Virus record (IMG/VR): IMGVR_UViG_3300030106_005215
Coordinates: 1-35,520 of that record
DNA: 35,520 nucleotides
Direction: 5' to 3' (one strand)
Origin: a virus
Both the position numbers and the translations under genes were made by a program. The number at the start of each line of letters is the position of its first letter. Within the stretch, counting starts at the first letter, position 1. The notes under the pieces were generated by a model that was given only the letters and a program-made list of their open reading frames with translations, was not told where the DNA came from and ran no database searches. Positions 1,402 through 23,060 of the stretch are shown piece after piece.

Positions 1402-4400
1402 ATGCCAAGATTTATTCCACTAACTTCAGGACTACGTGCGCTTCCTACTAATACCGTTGATATGACACCGGCATTACAGGAGGAGTCTGCTCGTGGAATA
1501 TTAGATTCCATGAAGGACTGGGGCATGTCTGCCCTAGGGTATGTGGGTGAGACCTTAGACAAGTTTGGCCGACCAGTTAGACAGGGTTTAGCTAGTGTCT
1601 TCAACCCCGACCATGAGCTTAATGTTAGTGAACTATTCTCTTGGGTTCCACTCTCAGACACTATCGGGCTAACTGACCCAAAGAATATTGCTTATGGGGA
1701 AGACATCACAGGGTGGGACGACTCTGACTCTTGGATAGATAACGTAGCCAACTTCGGTATTGAGGTTATTGCTGACCCGCTAAACTTCGTTACGTTTGGT
1801 GGCAAGGGGGCAATGACATCCATCGGTAAGTCCATGAACAAGATGGGCAAGATGGATGAGGCTGTAGATCTGTACGCCTCCAATGTAATGAAGCGGCATC
1901 CCAAGTTTGGGACAGAGGACTTTGTTCCAAAGAAAGAAATTATCACTAGTGTGCCAGCTAGAGATATTATTAATAACTATCGTGACCACCTGAGGACACA
2001 TGCTGGAAGGCCGGGGTCTGGATTAGCCTCAGTTAATAATTTTGATAATCAGCTTAGCGCAACGCTCAAGACAGAGGGCATAGAGACCGCTAAGCAAATG
2101 GACGATGCGCTAAATAATACACTAGGTGGCATGTTTGGTGTTGGCCCACTACCGTTTATGCAGCCGACCCGAGTTATGGGTCAGGGTGGTAAATATTCTA
2201 AGCCAATGTCCAAGGTGTGGGACTGGATGGGAGATAAGTTCAAGCAGACTCCTGTCCTGCGTGAGCTATGGAGTACGTTTAGCATGAAGATGGGAGGCGC
2301 ATCCACCCGTCTTGGCCGATACTTCATGGGGAAAGGCATCGACAACATGAATGATGCCACAGCCATGGCCAATCTCCATGCCGCTAAGGCTCTTAGAACT
2401 CTTGAGGACTCTGGTCTGTATGATGTGGCTACCGCCGGAAGCCAAGAGGCTGTGATGCGGAACTGGATGGACACACGTAGATTTCTAGAATGGAATCAGG
2501 AGTCTGTTAATAAGCTTAAAAAAGATGGCGACATGCAGGCTTATAAGGCAGCTATGATAGCTAAAGATAGGATGGATGAGCTATTTAAGCAGGTTCCTCA
2601 GGAGGTGCGGGGAGAATTGATGCTGCTTAAAGATATGCAACAGCATGTATTCGATCATGCAAGAGCCTTAGGCGTAGATCTCAATCCCCTTAACGATCCA
2701 GAAATAAACTATTGGAGAAGAAGGCTTAACGATCTTTATGATAATGTTGAAAACGATGTCGATGTAGCTGAACTTCTTGCAGTCAAAACATCCACCCCCG
2801 CCTCCACCTTCAGAGAGGGATGGCTAAAGGGGATACCCGCTGGTTCCGTTGGTATTATGGAACTGAGTCTAGATAAAAATATTTCTGGAGCAATCAGGAG
2901 GGCACAAGCTACAGTAGCAGACCTGAAATCGCAGGGAATTAAGACTGTTCCCCCTGAGCTGAAAGGTATTGGCGGTGCGAACATGGACATGCAGAAGCTG
3001 ATGGATAACCCAGCTGATGCAATAGATGAATACATTACCAATTCAGTCCGATACCTCAAGAAGAGATCTCGCAATCTGGGTGACAGGCTTGAGAGCGTCA
3101 TACCAGTTCATTACGCTGGTTCAGGGAAAAAGATTAATCCCACTACTAGGCATGGTGATGAATATATTAATAACCAGCTTGAGGAGATCGTTCGTAAGCT
3201 TGGCGGGATTGACCCACGCCATGCAGAAGATGGTGTTCCATTCTTCAAGCCTAACGTAGTGGAAGACTTCGTGGACTGGATGCAGCATTCACACCGTGCA
3301 TTAATGTCTGCTGAGGTTACACACGATACTCTAGCTAGTGCTGCTAGATTCTCAGTTGACACTATCGGATCTACGGAAAGGCATCTAACTGTTCGGGAGG
3401 CTATTGATACGATATTTAAGTACGATGATGAAGTCGTTGACGCTCGTGAATCAGCATATAGAAATATCATAGGTCGTTTGGATAACCCAACTCTTGCACG
3501 CCTTGGAAAGATTCTAAAGCAAGAGAATCCTATCAGTCAAACGGATCCACCGGCGCTAATAGCCATGGCTCTGGATAAGCTTAATGTTCCTAGCAGATTT
3601 GCTAAGGATGCACTGGCAGCAATCGGGCTATACACTAACCCCAAGAGTAACTCAGGGTTCATGAGGGCGATACGCTTATGGCAAAATGCTTGGCGTGCGG
3701 GTGTCACTATTATCCATCCTAAGTTTCACGACAGGAACTTTGTTGGTGGTCAGTTCAATAATCTAATATCCGGTCAGTTCAGTGCGAAGAGCCTTAGTGA
3801 TACTACAAATATTTTACTAGGCAATGCCGTTAAAGACGCTAGAAAGATGTTTCCCCATGCTGCAAATGATTTAGAAGCAACCAACATGTTGCTTAATGAA
3901 ATCTATGCACACCAAGTTTTCAATCCTGAGACACCATACAAAGCATTTGATGCAGCGATGGATGATCCAACCAGTGACATGGTACTAATGTCAGCTACCC
4001 CCGGTCAGCGAAGTGTTGGGGAAGGGCTCAGGAGATATTTAGTTGGGACAGATCCAAAAGATGCTGGCATCCTAACTAATAAGGAACTGGGGAATAAGTG
4101 GGGTACAGGTGCAGATATAGTATCGGCAGCAATGGGTATAGGTACAGTTCCCGGAGCAGTATTCGGTAAGGGTGGCTTAGATTTCAGGCCTATATTCGAC
4201 AAGACCGCTAGGAGGGATGTCCCCCTTAATGCCATAGCTGAATCCCGAAAGGATGTGTCCAAGCTGTACGCCATAGGGCATAAGATGTCGTCCTCGGTTG
4301 AAGCATACAATCGTATCTCCCCATATATTACGCTCAGGCGACAGGGATACTCCGCAAAAGAGGCGGCACGCAGGGTGGCTTTAGCACAGGTAGATTATAG

Positions 4401-5220
4401 AAATCTATCTGTAATGGAGAGAAGGTACATAAGAAACTTCTTCCCATTCTACTCCTTCACCAAGGGTATGGTTCCATTCGTAGTGCAAGATGTTCTAACA
4501 CGTCCATCGTCAGGCATACAGGGGCAGCTGATTCAAGCGTTGGGTAGAGCTGAAAGGACAGACGAGCAAGCAGTCTTTGCTCCTAGCTGGATGAGAAAAG
4601 GTTCAGCCCTCAAGGTTGGAACTGATCCAGTTAATCCAAATAGGGTGACATATCTTAGATCAATGGGTCTTCCGTTTGAGGATATAGGCGACTTGATTGG
4701 TGCAGATAATCCGTTTGAAGGATTGATGACACGTGTAGCCCCATGGATTAAAGCTCCGATTGAAAAGGCTATGGGGCACAGCTTCTACTTTGACAGGCCG
4801 CTAGAGCTATTAGAGTCTAAGTATGCTGATACCCCAGTAGGTCAGTTCTTCGGGGTAGGGAATGACCCACTGATTGATCTCATACCGGGAACATCAAGAT
4901 TCCAATCTACCCGTAAGATGCTTAAGGAAGATCCACTTCTCGAAGGGCTGTGGAATCAGATCAAGCCATGGCATACCAGAGAGGCTAGCATCGACAAGTC
5001 TCGTGCGTTTGCTATTCAGGATTACTTGAAAGAGTCAGGCATGATGCCCTCAAATATTATTAAGTCTATACCTGATGTCAGATATTTACCCAAGGAGCTA
5101 GCGCCGCAGCTAAGCCCGAACCAATTGCAACACTGGCTCATGTATCAAGCACAACAGAAGGCGATCCGTCAGGCATCAGATGAGGCACGTAAGCGACGAG
5201 AGGCTGGGCTTCCTAGATAA
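1402..5220 (+). CDS. giant virion-associated protein, large-polyvalent-protein type, 1272 aa
   Basis: This is the longest plus-strand gene. It starts at ATG 1402, two bases after the previous stop. It lacks long membrane segments and reads as a mostly helical protein. Two motifs are typical of giant phage proteins carrying large-polyvalent-protein-associated domains. One is a 'HP-x-FH-x-RN-x-x-x-x-x-x-NN' stretch near residues 771-788 (HPKFHDRNFVGGQFNN). The other is an aromatic 'NFFPFYSFTKG' stretch near residue 1012. In other phages such proteins are internal virion or ejection proteins, so delivery with the DNA is a reasonable inference. No enzymatic motif was recognised. Its end overlaps by 8 bp the end of the convergent tail-fibre gene, leaving no room for a terminator between them. 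Confidence 0.85.
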   Translation: MPRFIPLTSGLRALPTNTVDMTPALQEESARGILDSMKDWGMSALGYVGETLDKFGRPVRQGLASVFNPDHELNVSELFSWVPLSDTIGLTDPKNIAYGEDITGWDDSDSWIDNVANFGIEVIADPLNFVTFGGKGAMTSIGKSMNKMGKMDEAVDLYASNVMKRHPKFGTEDFVPKKEIITSVPARDIINNYRDHLRTHAGRPGSGLASVNNFDNQLSATLKTEGIETAKQMDDALNNTLGGMFGVGPLPFMQPTRVMGQGGKYSKPMSKVWDWMGDKFKQTPVLRELWSTFSMKMGGASTRLGRYFMGKGIDNMNDATAMANLHAAKALRTLEDSGLYDVATAGSQEAVMRNWMDTRRFLEWNQESVNKLKKDGDMQAYKAAMIAKDRMDELFKQVPQEVRGELMLLKDMQQHVFDHARALGVDLNPLNDPEINYWRRRLNDLYDNVENDVDVAELLAVKTSTPASTFREGWLKGIPAGSVGIMELSLDKNISGAIRRAQATVADLKSQGIKTVPPELKGIGGANMDMQKLMDNPADAIDEYITNSVRYLKKRSRNLGDRLESVIPVHYAGSGKKINPTTRHGDEYINNQLEEIVRKLGGIDPRHAEDGVPFFKPNVVEDFVDWMQHSHRALMSAEVTHDTLASAARFSVDTIGSTERHLTVREAIDTIFKYDDEVVDARESAYRNIIGRLDNPTLARLGKILKQENPISQTDPPALIAMALDKLNVPSRFAKDALAAIGLYTNPKSNSGFMRAIRLWQNAWRAGVTIIHPKFHDRNFVGGQFNNLISGQFSAKSLSDTTNILLGNAVKDARKMFPHAANDLEATNMLLNEIYAHQVFNPETPYKAFDAAMDDPTSDMVLMSATPGQRSVGEGLRRYLVGTDPKDAGILTNKELGNKWGTGADIVSAAMGIGTVPGAVFGKGGLDFRPIFDKTARRDVPLNAIAESRKDVSKLYAIGHKMSSSVEAYNRISPYITLRRQGYSAKEAARRVALAQVDYRNLSVMERRYIRNFFPFYSFTKGMVPFVVQDVLTRPSSGIQGQLIQALGRAERTDEQAVFAPSWMRKGSALKVGTDPVNPNRVTYLRSMGLPFEDIGDLIGADNPFEGLMTRVAPWIKAPIEKAMGHSFYFDRPLELLESKYADTPVGQFFGVGNDPLIDLIPGTSRFQSTRKMLKEDPLLEGLWNQIKPWHTREASIDKSRAFAIQDYLKESGMMPSNIIKSIPDVRYLPKELAPQLSPNQLQHWLMYQAQQKAIRQASDEARKRREAGLPR

Positions 5221-8200
5221 CCCTGACTTCTATATTTCCACTACCATCCTGTGTAACAACAGTCTCGCTTCCAGCAGATATCTTTACACCCTGTGCACTG
5301 ATGATCTGGTTTGCACTATGAGATGTTGGTGCTAGTGGGCCAGCCTTAGTCTTAAGTTTGACAGCTCCATCTCCAGTCTGAACTAAAACTATATTGTTAA
5401 GGCCAGAGATATGTGTTCCGGTTGAAACTATCTGGTTTGATAGTGCATTGTTTACAGGTTCGGCAGGCCCGAATCCTTCCAGTATATGCAGCTCACCCAC
5501 GTTATTCTGAAATATAACTACGTTGCTATAGTTTTGGGTGATACTCCCAAGCGATAGTATTGGCTGCTGTATGTCAGCTACAGTTGCATCTGGGGCTGTT
5601 GCAGACATTCTTGCAACTGGGTGGAGAACAGTTGTTCCCGCTGCTATCGTTCCTATCGTCGTGCTGGCCGTAGATGTAGCAGGGTCTATGAATACTACAT
5701 TCTCTACTTCTGCTAAGTACGTGATGATTAGCTGTGGAATTGCAAGATGCCAATTAGGGTTAACGAGGGCAAAATCCTTCCAACGCTGGTTCTTGATAAT
5801 GGGAATGGAATCCCTGCTGCCTGTCGCAAAAAATATATTGCTAGCGTATAGATAATCTGTATCTTCAGGGGGAGCTAAGGTTGGCTCTTCCCAGAATATT
5901 GTTATATGGTTTCCATCCTCCCAGTTTCTATTACTTATAAGATCCTGCATCAAACTGGTTATATCTGTTGTTATAGAGCAGGCTTCGATCTCTGATTCTG
6001 TAACGTCTTCTCTATATCCAAGATCATCGTCAATCCAAGCCCCCCTACCTGCACTATAGTCCTGCTCTACATATGCTGATCTGAGTGATCGAGAGTTGTA
6101 CACTTCTATAGCGTCGTAATCGAAAGCGGGAGAGTCATCATAGTCTCCAAGGTGTATCTTGGCTCTTATATCTCTCCATTGACTTGATTCTGGATCAGTA
6201 ACGATGCTTGTTCCGTATTTGCCCCCTTTGGTGGGCCATGACCTGTATATCTTAATTTCAAATTTAACAACACTCCTTCCAGTTATAAAGTTTCCAAATC
6301 TTAAAAACATTGTATGCAAATATGTGATGGTTGGGTGCGGATACTTGGATGAATCTACTCCCATCATTCTAGGCCAGCTAATCATTCTAACTTGACGAGC
6401 TGTCCAAGGATCATCTGCTGTCCCTCTATCCGTAGGGATCCACTCGCGGTTAATGTCTTGATCTAGGGACATACCATCTCGATTGACGAATCTTGCATCT
6501 CCTCCTCTGCCAATAATCTGGCCCATAGAAGGGTTCCACGTTCTGACTTCCTCTTGTATCGCAGTGACTTTAGTAGATATTGCACTTGATGATGCATCAG
6601 CAGAGTCCACGATACTGATAAGAAGCTCAGATGGAGACTCAACCAGTGCGATGAATGCAGAAGATATTATCGTAATCGCTTCCGGTTGAATTGACGGCAC
6701 CATTGTACCGGATGCTGCTATGTTGGCTGTCTCAGGTGTTATTGTGAGGGGTATTGCGCATGAAGCAGAAATCCCTGCATGTGCTGGAGTAACTATTGTT
6801 TCCAGAGACATGACCACTGCATGTGACATTGATGCAGGTGGTGGAATGACGGCAAGAATATTTTTATGGGCACTTGCCGTTACCGAACAGTGAACAACAT
6901 CTATGGCAAGGGTATCATTGTGCGATGTTGCTGTAACTGATGGGGCTGTAGGTATTACAACAGTTGGGGGAGGCTCTGCTGATGCAGTAATTGTCGCTGG
7001 AGCTGGCGTGTATTCCCGTAAATTATCTACTGCGGTAGCTGTGATGGTTGCGGGTGCCGGTATTACTTCATTGAAGTCATCGGCTGCTGTAGCGGTTATG
7101 GTTGCAACGGATGGCAAGACAGCTAGTATGGTGCTGTGTGATGTTGCTGCTATTGATGCATGTGTTGGGGTAACTACAAGAGGGCCAGTTGCAGCAGTCG
7201 CCGTGATGCCAGCATTAACAGGCTGGACAGCATGTAAGTCTGCGTGTGCAGCTGCTGCGATCCCAGCATTTACAGGGATAACTGAATGTAAATCTGCGTG
7301 TGCTGTACCTGTTATCCCAGCATTCAGGGGTGCAACAGCATGGAGATCTGCATGTGCTGTACCAGTAATACCGGCATTAGTTGGTGTAACATTGACTACT
7401 GATACTGCGGTTTGATCGGCACCAATATCCCACGTATCACCCTCTGCATCCCTATCCCTGCCATCAATGTCTATGTTGACACCAGTTGGGGATGTGCCAA
7501 GATCGACACCCGCACCTACAGCATCTGAACTCGTCTTTATATGGAGATCTTCGGTTCCCGCCGTATCAGAAACAAACAGATCTCCGTATGCTTCTCCAGT
7601 TACAGAGTTTGTTCCGGTTGCAGTACTGTCTGTTGATAAGTTATAGTCTTTCGTCGCACCAGAAAAGCCTGTGCCACCAAATGATTTATCATCACCGCCT
7701 ATAGGTCTTGCTGCAATATTATTTTTCAGAACGGCATCTGTGTCATTCACCGCTATGCAGTATGCATCCTCAGATCCAGATCCGGTTTTGACATAGTACA
7801 CCGTATTGTTGTACAAATTTATCGGATAGTTTGAAGACGCAACTCTAATGCCAAATGCTGAGTCATTGCTGTCCTCAATGTTGTAAACAATATTATTTAG
7901 GCAGTGTCGAGTGTTGGATCCACTCCCGCTTCCCCAGACATAGATTCCATTTACATCGTTGGATTGATTTTTTAGGTCACGAACTATATTGTGCTTGAAG
8001 AATACATCGGTATGTGCGTTTGCACCAAAGTTCATTCCTGAGAGAACCCCTGAACCAGTGCTGCTTAAATCAAATTCAAGCCATTCCACTGTTACATCAT
8101 TACGCTTAAGCACGACAGTGGGTGAGGTGGATCCTGTGTATTGAATTCTTGCTCCACTATTTTCGGTTCCATCATGTCTCTGCGATGATGGAGATGTTAG

Positions 8201-8650
8201 CTTAACGCTATCAAGACCTACCGTTCCGCCTCCATCTATAATGAATCTCTCATTTAGAACCGAGTCGTTGTATACTTCACCAACGGCATCATCTCCACTT
8301 GAATAGTAACTCGTATTATCTAGGTCACTTTCCCATGCAGTGATGGTGCTATAGGTTCTTTTGAATACCCCAGACGCTTGGCTGTATGACATGTCAACGA
8401 TGCCATATGGGTTTGTGGCTGACCAGCCACCTGATATCCACTTGAGCGTGTAGTTACTGCCAGATATATTTGTAACTAGATATACATATACAGTCCCCAT
8501 TCCATTATCGAAATGAACAGAGTCACCAACGCTAACCCCAGTGGGGTCGGTACTGAATGTCACTGTATATGGATTAGATCCTGAACCACTGCTTGGTACT
8601 TCAGTATCAATACTGGTATTTGTGCCAATGCTAGTTGTGACAGTTGCCAT
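5213..8650 (-). CDS. tail fibre/spike-like protein with beta-helix and 18-residue repeats, 1145 aa
   Basis: The N-terminal 100 residues are a small beta-rich domain. Residues about 115-415 look like a right-handed parallel beta-helix: repeated 'NNIVYNI / NNTVYYV / KNNIAARP' turns ending in the DIDGRDRD...DIGAD segment common at the end of pectate-lyase-like folds. Residues about 417-665 hold roughly 14 degenerate 18-residue repeats of the form PxxAxITATAHxxLxAV. A globular region at 700-990 follows, then a beta-rich C-terminal tail. These features suggest a receptor-binding or glycan-processing fibre on the virion surface; no catalytic site could be assigned. The start ATG (8650) overlaps the TAA of the upstream gene by one base. 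It is on the strand opposite to the other virion genes and converges with the giant protein gene. Confidence 0.85.
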   Translation of the reverse strand: MATVTTSIGTNTSIDTEVPSSGSGSNPYTVTFSTDPTGVSVGDSVHFDNGMGTVYVYLVTNISGSNYTLKWISGGWSATNPYGIVDMSYSQASGVFKRTYSTITAWESDLDNTSYYSSGDDAVGEVYNDSVLNERFIIDGGGTVGLDSVKLTSPSSQRHDGTENSGARIQYTGSTSPTVVLKRNDVTVEWLEFDLSSTGSGVLSGMNFGANAHTDVFFKHNIVRDLKNQSNDVNGIYVWGSGSGSNTRHCLNNIVYNIEDSNDSAFGIRVASSNYPINLYNNTVYYVKTGSGSEDAYCIAVNDTDAVLKNNIAARPIGGDDKSFGGTGFSGATKDYNLSTDSTATGTNSVTGEAYGDLFVSDTAGTEDLHIKTSSDAVGAGVDLGTSPTGVNIDIDGRDRDAEGDTWDIGADQTAVSVVNVTPTNAGITGTAHADLHAVAPLNAGITGTAHADLHSVIPVNAGIAAAAHADLHAVQPVNAGITATAATGPLVVTPTHASIAATSHSTILAVLPSVATITATAADDFNEVIPAPATITATAVDNLREYTPAPATITASAEPPPTVVIPTAPSVTATSHNDTLAIDVVHCSVTASAHKNILAVIPPPASMSHAVVMSLETIVTPAHAGISASCAIPLTITPETANIAASGTMVPSIQPEAITIISSAFIALVESPSELLISIVDSADASSSAISTKVTAIQEEVRTWNPSMGQIIGRGGDARFVNRDGMSLDQDINREWIPTDRGTADDPWTARQVRMISWPRMMGVDSSKYPHPTITYLHTMFLRFGNFITGRSVVKFEIKIYRSWPTKGGKYGTSIVTDPESSQWRDIRAKIHLGDYDDSPAFDYDAIEVYNSRSLRSAYVEQDYSAGRGAWIDDDLGYREDVTESEIEACSITTDITSLMQDLISNRNWEDGNHITIFWEEPTLAPPEDTDYLYASNIFFATGSRDSIPIIKNQRWKDFALVNPNWHLAIPQLIITYLAEVENVVFIDPATSTASTTIGTIAAGTTVLHPVARMSATAPDATVADIQQPILSLGSITQNYSNVVIFQNNVGELHILEGFGPAEPVNNALSNQIVSTGTHISGLNNIVLVQTGDGAVKLKTKAGPLAPTSHSANQIISAQGVKISAGSETVVTQDGSGNIEVRVI
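6660..7400 (-). repeat. about 14 tandem 54-bp coding repeats inside the fibre gene
   Basis: The encoded unit is 18 residues long, with consensus P-x-x-A-x-I-T-A-T-A-H-x-x-L-x-A-V. The first units are close copies (NAGITGTAHADLHAV, NAGITGTAHADLHSV, NAGIAAAAHADLHAV), while later units are diverged. The N-terminal end of the array (near 7200-7400) is therefore the most recently duplicated part. The fixed period suggests a regular beta-solenoid or shaft. Confidence 0.8.
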
Positions 8651-18991: not shown

Positions 18992-19366
18992 TTAGAATAT
19001 ATCATTCTCAGGTGCAGCATGAACTGGCTGTGCTATAGCCTGCTGTGATGTACCCTGACCTGCTATATTCTCTACTCGTGAAGCTGTAACCTGTAGTTTA
19101 GAGTACTGCTTCCCATCTTTTTCCCATGAGGATTCCTTAACAGTACCCTCAATGAATACCTCACTACCCTTACTTAGGTAGTCGTTAGCCATCTGTGCAT
19201 TGCTAGCCCATAGGGTAACAGGTACACGACTAGTGGTAGTCTTGCCTTTGAATGTGCTATCAATAATCAAAGTGATATCGGCTACTGCCCTATCACCATT
19301 GATATATCTAAGCTCCACATCATCGGCAAGCTTACCCATTAATAAGACCTTATTATAATCGGCCAT
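18992..19366 (-). CDS. ssb: single-stranded DNA-binding protein, 124 aa
   Basis: An OB-fold SSB: MADYNKVLLMGKLADDVELRY, then SRVPVTLWASNAQMANDYLSKGSEVFIEGT and WEKDGKQYSKLQVTA. A short disordered linker leads to an acidic-hydrophobic tip (ENDIF), the counterpart of the DDDIPF tail that recruits repair and replication proteins. It coats single strands during replication and recombination and would serve the ERF/RecE system. ATG 19366 has GGAGGG upstream and lies two bases after the VWA stop. It is the last gene before the terminator. Confidence 0.93.
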   Translation of the reverse strand: MADYNKVLLMGKLADDVELRYINGDRAVADITLIIDSTFKGKTTTSRVPVTLWASNAQMANDYLSKGSEVFIEGTVKESSWEKDGKQYSKLQVTASRVENIAGQGTSQQAIAQPVHAAPENDIF

Positions 19367-19368
19367 AG

Positions 19369-20991
19369 TTATCGTCCCTCCAGAACAATAGTTTCTATCC
19401 AGTCCGGCACAGGATATGCCGAGAGGCTACCACTACAGGTGATAGCCGCTATAACCGGACAGTTAATTTCATCCTTGCTTTCAGGCCACGGTGTATAGCC
19501 ATCAGTGACAGCTAACATAATGTGAGGTGGCTTCTCTGACATCTCATATGCCTCCTTCAGTAGTACACCAACGTCTGTACCACCACCACCTTCCAGCTTT
19601 AGCTTATTAATCTTACGAGCTGAGACCATCATGGCCTTGGCATTAGTATCACCAACAACAATATTAATACCTTCTCTACTCCTGAAGGATTTAATTACCT
19701 TATTGATGATGTCTAATGCACAGCCATAGTCTTCCTCAGACATAGACCCAGAGGTGTCAAGGCATATAGTGATCCGTGGTATGCTCTCTATGTTAGCTCC
19801 CATAATGAATGGAGCTTGTGAGAATCTACGGTTAGGTCGGCGGTATGTTCTATCACCTACACCATAGATCTGCTCGACTCTCTTTCGGACTTTCCTAATT
19901 ATAACTTTCCTAGGATCTTCCTTAACTTTGAGAGTCTTATCTGCCCACCCCTTCCAGCTACCACCACCCTCTCCTTGGTCATGTATCTTAGCTGCAACAT
20001 TATTAATGACAGCTTGGATCTCCTCCTCCGTTAGTCCAACACCTGATTCCTCAGGGGCTGACACTTCCCACGGTCTTACTGCTCCATGGGCTGAGGAACC
20101 TTGGTCGATTGGTTGTCCGTCCCATTCGAGTTCACCTGAGGCACTAACCCTGAGGCTTCCATTACCTGAGCCATTGCCATCACTGCGTCCCTGATCTGAT
20201 TCATCTGAGCGTCCATCGTTCGGAGAGCATTGCTCATCCCCGAATTCACTTTCATTATCTGATCGTTCAGTGTTGCCATTGCCCCTTCCAGCTTTGCTAC
20301 CCTGTCCTGCAACCCCTCTGCCTTGTCCTTTAGGGATGTTAGGTTGCTGACTGCTGTCTGGATCTCCACTACTTTCTCCGTGAGACCCTGCTCCACCTCG
20401 TGAATCTTGGTTAGAGTTGCTTGGGATATTCTCGCTGTAGTTTTCTTCTTTGTCTCCACCATGGTCTGGCTCCTTGTAAAGTAATCTAAACGTCTGCTCA
20501 ACTGAGCGTGGTATGTTATCTAATCCTAGTGTCAGATTTGTTGGATCGCTTAACACACTCCAACTCATCTTAGCTGCCTTCTCATAGTGCAAGTCTTCAT
20601 ACTGCTTGTCCAATAAGAAGTTAGCGGTTGCTAAGGATGAGTCCCTTATGGTTTCCACCTTGTCTTCACTAGGTGATTCGCCAAGTATGACACCGCATCT
20701 CTTAGGGTAACGATGAAGTAGAAACAATATCTCTCGCATGAGAGTTGTCGCTATAAATTCCTCGCTACAATCCTCAACAAACTCTGGGTCATAGTAGATA
20801 TTCCAGTGCTTATCAGCAGTGATGCCACCAAGTTTGTTTACCCGTATAGATTTCATACTCATTACAGCATCCCGAGCAAACGGCCATATAAAACATATGG
20901 CTCGCTTGGCACGGGACAATCTTGGGTGTACATTTTCGGTGGCGGAAGTAATTATACTGGGCGATAATACATCTGTCAAATTGTCGCTCAT
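19369..20991 (-). CDS. VWA-domain protein of CobT/DUF2201-like architecture, 540 aa
   Basis: There are three parts. Residues 1-175 form a helical domain with a degenerate metallopeptidase-like segment (LMREILFLLHRYPKR; the usual HExxH is absent). Residues about 176-320 are a Gly/Ser/Asp/Asn-rich disordered linker. Residues 330-540 form a von Willebrand A domain with an intact MIDAS (CLDTSGSMS near 412, GGGGTD, and VTDGYT). VWA partners of MoxR ATPases, such as CobT with CobS or NorD with NorQ, act in ATP-driven insertion of metals or remodelling of complexes. The MoxR gene is immediately upstream. The linker DNA also carries a second frame (20076-20462). The ribosome site AAGGAG precedes ATG 20991. 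Confidence 0.88.
   Translation of the reverse strand: MSDNLTDVLSPSIITSATENVHPRLSRAKRAICFIWPFARDAVMSMKSIRVNKLGGITADKHWNIYYDPEFVEDCSEEFIATTLMREILFLLHRYPKRCGVILGESPSEDKVETIRDSSLATANFLLDKQYEDLHYEKAAKMSWSVLSDPTNLTLGLDNIPRSVEQTFRLLYKEPDHGGDKEENYSENIPSNSNQDSRGGAGSHGESSGDPDSSQQPNIPKGQGRGVAGQGSKAGRGNGNTERSDNESEFGDEQCSPNDGRSDESDQGRSDGNGSGNGSLRVSASGELEWDGQPIDQGSSAHGAVRPWEVSAPEESGVGLTEEEIQAVINNVAAKIHDQGEGGGSWKGWADKTLKVKEDPRKVIIRKVRKRVEQIYGVGDRTYRRPNRRFSQAPFIMGANIESIPRITICLDTSGSMSEEDYGCALDIINKVIKSFRSREGINIVVGDTNAKAMMVSARKINKLKLEGGGGTDVGVLLKEAYEMSEKPPHIMLAVTDGYTPWPESKDEINCPVIAAITCSGSLSAYPVPDWIETIVLEGR
20076..20462 (-). CDS. probable nested out-of-frame gene: coiled-coil protein, 128 aa
   Basis: A second frame on the same strand, shifted +1 from the VWA gene, lies entirely inside it. 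ATG 20462 is preceded by AAGGAG with seven bases between, an ideal ribosome site. The product begins MVETKKKTTARISQATLTKI and continues as a long heptad-patterned helix (EVEQGLTEKVVEIQ, SLKDKAEGLQDRVAKLEG, TMDAQMNQIRDAVMAMAQVM). It ends in a short polar tail with TAA at 20076-20078. Composition and heptads are those of a real coiled-coil protein, whereas the VWA frame here is only a low-complexity linker. An overprinted gene is the best explanation; a chance open frame biased by the linker's codons is the alternative. Confidence 0.65.
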   Translation of the reverse strand: MVETKKKTTARISQATLTKIHEVEQGLTEKVVEIQTAVSNLTSLKDKAEGLQDRVAKLEGAMATLNDQIMKVNSGMSNALRTMDAQMNQIRDAVMAMAQVMEASGLVPQVNSNGTDNQSTKVPQPMEQ

Positions 20992-21001
20992 TCTTTTCTC
21001 C

Positions 21002-22108
21002 TTAGTAAGGTAGTGTTAGGTCGGCACGGTCTTGTTCCATATCACTGAAGTATTCATTAGCTTCAGGTTGGTGACCATCAGGTTTAATCTTCCACACTCT
21101 ACCTTTGAATGCTTGTGCAACATCAGGATTCTGTTTGTTGCATGAAGCTAAGAATATTCGTAGGTTCTCCCACCGGGTAGGTGTGTTGTCCTCTCGAACT
21201 CTACGAACGACACTGCCGATGTAGCTTATAGCTAGGTGACATACTGAAGGCACCTTCACATCGTATGGATCAGATAGTATTTCCTCAGGGGTTTTTAGTT
21301 CCTCATGTTTCATGAAGTCTAAGAACATCTGACCTGCCTCAGCACCTACACATCCAGTGACTAGCACTCTACGTGTATGTTCATCAGCACCAACGCTATC
21401 TGCTGCACCAAGTAGGCGACAGGCATTAGTCCATGACCGTTGGCTTGGGAATGGTAGCATACCCTCATCAGTGGGTGCCACGTTTAGTAGCTCAGGTCTA
21501 GCTAACACATGATTGGTGTCACTTAGGAATGTGCTAGCCTGTGCTGAGTAGAAAGCTATCCCTTCTTCCCAGTCGCTAGGCAGTAGAGGTACATCAGGCT
21601 CAGGGAAATCTATACCATTCCCCTCCATGCCCTGCTTCCACGACTCAACATCAGGTTCCCACTCCATAATGCAGAGCCTATTAACCATCGGTGCTTCTAG
21701 TGGTGTACCATTAGCTGCGATATCTGGGGGGTTAGCTGCTGCAAACTTCCAACAGTTAGGTATATCCTCTAGTACCCACTGCAATGCCGCCGCTTGTACT
21801 GCTGGTGTAGCACAGGTTAGCTCATCTAGGAATAACACTGAGGGCTGTAGCTTGCAGAGTAACATGCCCTCATCTAATAATCTTTTAACTACATGGTATT
21901 CATCACCCTCATACTCTACCTTGGTAGGCACAGGGAACCCACCTAGATCTTCAGGTATCTGTTGACCTAGGTACAGTGGATAGTAGTAGCGATTACTCTC
22001 CTTGGCTAGTGAGCTAGTGAAGGCAGACTTACCAGTACCACTAGCACCAAGAGCCAGAGGTGTGACACCTGCTTGACCTGCAATCATGTATGCTTGGTTA
22101 GTTGACAT
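21002..22108 (-). CDS. MoxR-type AAA+ ATPase, 368 aa
   Basis: Walker A GASGTGKS (K27), Walker B VLFLDELT (91-98) and sensor-1 AAANPPD (123-129) mark an AAA+ enzyme of the MoxR/CbbQ/NorQ/CobS group. Members form hexamers that work with a VWA-domain partner to remodel or load cofactors into target complexes; the VWA partner is the next gene downstream. ATG 22108 is chosen for the AAAGGAG site and the MSTNQAYMIAG start; the frame is open to 22159 but would overlap the upstream gene. The C-terminus ends in LTLPY, similar to the SDLPY end of the upstream protein. Confidence 0.9.
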   Translation of the reverse strand: MSTNQAYMIAGQAGVTPLALGASGTGKSAFTSSLAKESNRYYYPLYLGQQIPEDLGGFPVPTKVEYEGDEYHVVKRLLDEGMLLCKLQPSVLFLDELTCATPAVQAAALQWVLEDIPNCWKFAAANPPDIAANGTPLEAPMVNRLCIMEWEPDVESWKQGMEGNGIDFPEPDVPLLPSDWEEGIAFYSAQASTFLSDTNHVLARPELLNVAPTDEGMLPFPSQRSWTNACRLLGAADSVGADEHTRRVLVTGCVGAEAGQMFLDFMKHEELKTPEEILSDPYDVKVPSVCHLAISYIGSVVRRVREDNTPTRWENLRIFLASCNKQNPDVAQAFKGRVWKIKPDGHQPEANEYFSDMEQDRADLTLPY

Positions 22109-22121
22109 ATTAAACTCTCCT

Positions 22122-23060
22122 TTAGTAGGGAAGATCGCTAAAGATAGCGTCATCTTCAATCATAGAAACAGCACTAGCATTAGCCTGAACAGATAAGGCA
22201 CCTGCCTTAGTCAGCCTATCAACTAGTGCATCCATCCTGCTACCAAGAACACCTTGATAACTATTAACAATATAAGACAGTCGCTCAGATAGTTCTTTAC
22301 GCTTTCTGAGATGGAAGTCAGTGGCCTCACTTGATGCCATCATTCCCTCCAGCTTAGATACATCCTCGGTTAAAGAATTCTCTAGTGCCACAAACAAACT
22401 ATCTAATGTGTTTGCATCACCCGCTTGAGAGAATAGTTGGACGGGAACAATACTATGCAATTTATTTTGTATGTTCTTCCACATATCCTTCCTTGATGGT
22501 GGCAGCCAGTACATAGATCCACCGTCCTTAATAGAGAAGGCATCACCCCAAGTATCCAGAATCTCTTTGAATGTTTTAGTTACCTCACCACCACTAAGGG
22601 AGTCAATGAACTGAGCCTCCATCCTAGGGAATCGCCTAAGGAATGCATCCTGTGCCGTGATATTATCCGCATCACCAAGGGCTATTTGTATGTTGCTAGA
22701 TATGTCATCAAAGGTACGGTAGAAACCCAGCTCTTTTGTTGATCTCCTATAGGTAACAGTCATCAGTCTAGTCTTGGCATTATTCTTCCATGAATTCCTT
22801 TCCGTTCCAAAGATATCCCAGCTACAGAAGTCGGGTTCCTTTCTACCTGTCCACTTACGCTCACACTTGATTGAGTCAAACCCATTGAACCCAGCAGCAT
22901 GATGCCCACACTTATTGAGTATGTACTCCATGTTCTTTACTGTGTTTGGCATAGGTACATGTTGACCTAAGCCAAGACCATCAAGTGCTTGGAAGAATTG
23001 GTCTCTATCAATACGCTTGCCACTCCAGCTGGCAATATTCCCTACGATATCTATGCTCAT
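22122..23060 (-). CDS. hypothetical protein of the MoxR-VWA operon, 312 aa
   Basis: A soluble protein with no recognised family, starting MSIDIVGNIASWSGKR at ATG 23060 (AAGGAA upstream). The N-terminal half is mixed alpha/beta with many aromatic residues. The C-terminal third (about 215-300) is helical with a probable coiled coil and ends EDDAIFSDLPY, resembling an SSB-type tip. It lies 13 bases before the MoxR gene, so it is likely the third component of the same machine, perhaps the client or an adaptor. Confidence 0.75.
   Translation of the reverse strand: MSIDIVGNIASWSGKRIDRDQFFQALDGLGLGQHVPMPNTVKNMEYILNKCGHHAAGFNGFDSIKCERKWTGRKEPDFCSWDIFGTERNSWKNNAKTRLMTVTYRRSTKELGFYRTFDDISSNIQIALGDADNITAQDAFLRRFPRMEAQFIDSLSGGEVTKTFKEILDTWGDAFSIKDGGSMYWLPPSRKDMWKNIQNKLHSIVPVQLFSQAGDANTLDSLFVALENSLTEDVSKLEGMMASSEATDFHLRKRKELSERLSYIVNSYQGVLGSRMDALVDRLTKAGALSVQANASAVSMIEDDAIFSDLPY

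Follow-up and report, generated by a model that had tools for sequence, protein, structure and literature searches.

The window analysed here, a 35,520-nucleotide stretch of viral DNA (positions 1 to 35,520 of IMG/VR record IMGVR_UViG_3300030106_005215), very probably carries a genuine overprinted gene with its own translation start at 20076–20462, nested within a phage VWA gene that lies downstream of a MoxR-type ATPase gene. Conservation of the nested frame in a related phage (contig L002) is, in our judgement, decisive for its reality. The relevant features, all on the minus strand, are as follows.

18992–19366, minus strand: gene directly downstream of the VWA gene, resembling a single-stranded-DNA-binding protein by eye and preceded by a ribosome site of its own (GGAGG); 81% identical in the L002 contig.
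19369–20991, minus strand: VWA gene, 540 aa, with DUF2201_N and VWA (DUF2201) domains (Pfam PF13203 and PF09967; phrog_1314, 4e-28).
20076–20462, minus strand: nested (overprinted) gene for a predicted long-helix coiled-coil protein of 128 aa, in the +1 frame of the VWA gene.
20076–20463, minus strand: linker of the VWA protein (about residues 177–305), disordered, rich in Gly/Ser/Asp/Asn and variable between homologues (33% identity over 113 codons).
20470–20475, minus strand: Shine-Dalgarno sequence AAGGAG of the nested gene; AGGAG is kept before the L002 start, and the more distant L012 locus has TGGAGA.
21002–22159, minus strand: gene for a MoxR-type AAA+ ATPase, immediately 5′ of the VWA gene (phrog_1297, 1e-38); 73% identical in L002.
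22122–23060, minus strand: gene preceding MoxR, with a homologue in the L002 contig (42%).

The nested frame runs from 20462 to 20076, contains 128 codons from ATG to TAA, and lies wholly within the 540-codon VWA gene; its ATG is offset from the VWA start by 529 nt, placing it in the +1 register. AAGGAG precedes the ATG at 20462 with a 7-nt spacer (AAGGAGccagaccATG), and its AAG and GAG triplets are the codons for Lys-Glu in the VWA protein. A first-pass annotation had described this frame, its start and stop codons and the double use of the Lys-Glu codons, and translation of the minus strand agrees on each point.

The VWA protein passes the curated cut-offs of both Pfam families (PF13203, 42.8 versus 23.2 bits; PF09967, 35.9 versus 26.4 bits) and consists of an N-terminal metallopeptidase-like domain, a long Gly/Ser/Asp/Glu/Asn linker on which the nested gene lies, and a VWA domain. 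The VWA metal-site motif DxSGS...T...D is present (DTSGSM at 412–417, with GGGGT and TDG conserved in a three-way alignment). The HExxH zinc-peptidase motif, kept in 17 of 21 aligned homologues, is replaced by MREILF in the window (20686–20760, minus strand; VWA residues about 78–102) and by MRILVH in L002; in this clade the DUF2201_N domain is probably inactive as a peptidase. The linker had been read as disordered and Gly/Ser/Asp/Asn-rich, in keeping with its composition and its 33% identity between homologues; AlphaFold gives it a pLDDT of about 26 and no secondary structure, a low-confidence model that supports disorder weakly.

The MoxR, VWA and single-stranded-DNA-binding-protein-like genes each have their own Shine-Dalgarno sequence, the MoxR and VWA genes are probably on the same mRNA, and the surroundings contain DNA-metabolism genes. 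At the place of window 22122–23060, L012 has a gene matching Pfam DUF6744, which suggests that DUF6744-like, MoxR and VWA genes form a three-gene block.

The scan of viral contigs matched two: L001, whose VWA gene does not differ from that of the window, and L002, from a related phage with a 50% identical VWA protein. Since L001 equals the window here, the independent sequences with an alignable inner gene are two, the window and L002; scans of viral contigs and bacterial genomes found no third close relative. L002 has a 118-codon frame (3536–3892) at the same place and in the same +1 register with its own AGGAG and ATG. Identity between the inner proteins is 72% over 112 residues; between the VWA proteins it is 33% in the overlapped linker, 46% in the N-terminal part and 63% in the C-terminal part. 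The inner and outer alignments agree base for base and are gap-free over the overlap. Where an inner-gene homologue exists, the inner frame is free of stops and keeps its ATG and ribosome site.

The substitution pattern follows the inner frame. Over the 113 gap-free codons of the overlap the mismatch at outer codon positions 1, 2 and 3 is 60, 18 and 14%, compared with 44, 34 and 68% upstream and 29, 16 and 56% downstream, and the third-position deficit is highly significant (Fisher p about 1e-19). The suppression of outer synonymous variation predicted in the first-pass annotation for 20076–20462 is thus present and confined to this stretch, and its claim that the inner frame is the constrained one holds. 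At the inner ATG third-position change drops from 70% to 5%, and it recovers around VWA residue 280–290, opposite the variable tail of the inner protein; outer first positions, which are the inner wobble bases, differ by 85–90% in the first windows of the overlap. Where the outer residue is identical, the codon differs in 3 of 36 cases inside the overlap and in 114 of 212 elsewhere (p about 1e-7). A control scan covered 781 windows of 40 codons in 36 homologous gene pairs shared by the two phages, and the ten strongest inversions all fall in this stretch. A weaker stretch in which third positions are less variable than first and second positions relative to the L002 contig occurs at 5213–8650 (minus strand; residues about 746–835), in a repeat-rich protein, and likely reflects misalignment or a variable module.

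There are 103 base differences in the overlap, of which 61 alter the outer protein but leave the inner one unchanged (26.9 expected) and 11 are of the reverse class (26.5 expected). The latter are 11 of the 42 inner-changing differences, versus about 35% expected to be outer-silent, and by this comparison the VWA frame shows no clear purifying selection in the overlap other than to stay open and polar. A/G exchanges make up 34 of the 61 inner-silent changes, and the outer replacements seen most often are Asp/Asn (12), Gly/Ser (9) and Gly/Arg (9), all of them tolerable in a disordered linker. The VWA frame would therefore pay little for the nested gene, because changes synonymous in the inner frame mostly swap these residues.

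The predicted inner protein has near-continuous hydrophobic residues at a/d-type positions from about residue 17 to 101 (96% versus 25% elsewhere; positions assigned by eye). In 3000 synonymous shuffles of the VWA gene with the protein sequence kept, none reached the heptad score of the window (5.36, versus 2.72 ± 0.53 [SD] in the shuffles), nor that of the L002 inner protein (4.96; 0 of 3000). AlphaFold predicts for the single chain one 103-residue helix (residues 2–104) followed by a disordered tail, with block-mean pLDDT of 92–98 over residues 11–100 and near 98 for most of the helix. The regular heptads over about 85 residues noted at first pass are thus corroborated, and a helical, coiled-coil-like product is supported by these models. 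We have moderate confidence that the helix would oligomerise as a coiled coil; a long heptad helix need not oligomerise. Non-core positions of the helix are as conserved between the window and L002 as the core (78% and 72%), which suggests that the inner protein has a binding partner. It lacks cysteine and aromatic residues and has no membrane stretch (highest hydropathy over 19 residues, 0.88). Its matches in Pfam, PHROG and NCBIfam are all generic coiled-coil ones and fall below the curated cut-off wherever a family has one, structure searches with the predicted helix give nothing significant, and the viral contigs, phages and plasmids searched contain no free-standing relative.

A possible further instance is present in L012 (VWA 29% identical, MoxR about 42%), where the same linker contains a 67-codon +1 frame (7315–7518, plus strand; TGGAGA then ATG) whose stop lies within about a codon of the aligned L002 stop. 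Its heptad score is equalled in 41 of 3000 shuffles (p about 0.014) and its +1-frame codon score in 6 of 2000 (p about 0.003); an equally long +1 frame is expected there under shuffling. Its product has no detectable similarity to the inner protein of the window (hhalign probability 0.9%), so homology was rejected and the frame is kept as a positional parallel, suggestive of a nested gene. In fourteen other phage VWA genes, mostly from Schitoviridae, no +1 or +2 frame with a clear ribosome site reaches 50 codons, and inspection of the L041 and plasmid VWA linkers, which are shorter, shows no such gene. Linkers are 140 and 143 residues long in the two phages with the gene, 109 in L012, and 19–74 in 18 homologues without it. 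This absence from most distant VWA genes limits the age or spread of the nested gene without refuting it, and shows that the MoxR–VWA machine works elsewhere without it.

In the proposed mechanism, ribosomes would initiate within the VWA coding sequence, at the nested ATG that follows AAGGAG, and translate the +1 frame. The product would be a soluble 14-kDa protein with a short basic N-terminus, a long amphipathic helix and a variable polar tail, presumably translated from one mRNA with MoxR and VWA. It may act as a third component of the MoxR–VWA machine, as an adaptor (put forward at first pass as possibly dimeric) or oligomer-setting partner; this role is speculative, stands somewhat below an even chance, and is suggested by position, as the gene lies inside VWA and next to MoxR.

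Phage pairs of MoxR with a metallopeptidase-VWA protein are known as gp24/gp25 of N4 (Schitoviridae) and in group 2.2 jumbo phages (PMC7824862), and are of the same gene kind as those of the window (phrog_1297; PF13203/PF09967 and phrog_1314). The 14 phage VWA genes of this kind differ in having no nested gene and linkers of 19–61 aa, versus 140 here, and the window has lost HExxH. Relation of the phage to Schitoviridae (N4-like) is found only in MoxR and VWA, and it is not placed in the family. The small genes between MoxR and VWA in Schitoviridae were considered as free-standing counterparts of the nested gene and rejected, being not coiled-coil-like by eye and having no Pfam match. MoxR–VWA pairs elsewhere are chaperone pairs acting on larger complexes. 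In Acidianus two-tailed virus (ATV), MoxR p618 binds VWA p892 and three virion proteins, one of which (p800) is filament-forming (PMC4124505); the likeness is a viral MoxR–VWA chaperone pair that binds further virus proteins, made by description rather than by sequence, and ATV is an archaeal virus in which the pair concerns virion and tail development and no nested gene is reported. A virion-assembly role has been proposed for the jumbo-phage pairs (PMC7824862). For the nested protein a role in the replication or recombination phase is at least as likely, because the locus lies among DNA-metabolism genes and the gene between MoxR and VWA in PEV2 is noted as early-transcribed.

Nearly an even chance attaches to a real nested gene that acts apart from MoxR and VWA, for example as an early host-takeover, counter-defence or small structural protein lodged in a tolerant linker. 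Its lack of family homology past generic coiled-coil matches and its absence from most MoxR–VWA loci agree with this, as does the accessory nature of many de novo overprinted viral proteins (PMC8227390). Against it, the gene is kept within the same VWA gene in two phages at 50% VWA identity, and possibly in a third at 29%, and no free-standing copy occurs in the sequences searched.

An improbable alternative is ribosomal frameshifting out of the VWA frame into the inner one, which would yield a fusion of a truncated VWA N-domain with the coiled coil. The +1 frame is indeed open 5′ of the nested ATG for about 19 codons in the window (with a TTG start at 20501) and for 16 in L002, but this extension is not conserved, with 72% base mismatch over 60 nt versus 33% just inside the gene. 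Because conservation begins at the ATG, behind a conserved ribosome site, and the upstream +1 codons are unrelated, internal initiation is the reading that we infer. Conservation as an RNA or DNA structure, to which low third-position variation alone would be suited, is very improbable, as outer first positions vary by 60% and the other two are nearly fixed, a rhythm given only by +1 codons.

The openness of the frame is ordinary. In the synonymous shuffles an ATG-started +1 frame of at least 128 codons appears in 241 of 3000 (8%; 8–13% overall). The linker is poor in +1 stops because 61% of its codons start with two purines, so that +1 readings start with a purine and cannot form stop codons; shuffled linkers have about 1.6 stops per 128 codons in this frame, versus roughly 3–10 per 100 in the +1 frames of the other genes of the phage. 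A long frame in such a linker is therefore weak evidence, and frame length was rejected as evidence for the nested gene; the frame reported at first pass stands, and the weight given there to its openness does not. A tendency of the linker code to yield a helix-favouring composition was likewise tried as an explanation and has a small effect only (0.46 in the shuffled linker versus 0.38–0.49 in +1 frames of other genes). We give practically no credence to a chance frame carried as a passenger of purine-rich linker codons, with which the ordinary length and scarcity of stops agree, since conservation is higher in the inner protein than in the outer, the inner heptads and +1-frame codon score lie beyond the shuffles, and the substitution pattern and the 781-window control contradict it.

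Within the preferred reading of a separately initiated nested gene, the usual codon-usage criterion makes the inner frame look newer, as its synonymous codon usage is below that of every same-length window of the phage's genes in both the window and L002, and the linker is typical; in L012 the trend is reversed. The linker may have grown longer as the inner frame arose. It is possible, although as a whole rather doubtful, that a third, coiled-coil subunit of the MoxR–VWA machine was overprinted in the VWA linker, that this newer frame is now the constrained one and the older drifts, and that L012 acquired its frame by descent or by repeated birth.

Small genes nested with their own start in another frame of a larger gene are known in tailed dsDNA phages from the embedded spanins Rz/Rz1 of lambda, a membrane protein and a lipoprotein for lysis. 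The likeness is the nested gene with its own start; the protein described here has no Cys or membrane stretch and lies in a MoxR–VWA locus. In apple stem grooving virus a conserved movement protein overlaps a fast-evolving polymerase/coat-protein linker (4% versus 39% divergence; PMC8227390), and this layout of a conserved protein over a linker is shared, although that is a plant RNA virus whose proteins are unrelated to the coiled coil of this tailed phage. According to a review of viral overlaps, the de novo protein varies more in 23 of 23 asymmetric cases with known genealogy (PMC8227390), whereas here the newer-looking frame is the conserved one. No open-access paper was found describing this nested gene (subscription literature lay outside the search). 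Nested phage genes and genes over interdomain linkers are known kinds; the novelty lies in the locus, in the protein, and in a newer frame that is conserved while the older one drifts.

At 128 aa the nested gene exceeds the overlap allowed by common gene callers, so that such genes would be systematically missed. The question of when a new frame takes control of old DNA becomes directly testable at this locus, and the nested protein is a candidate missing component of the phage MoxR–VWA pair, whose function is proposed rather than established.
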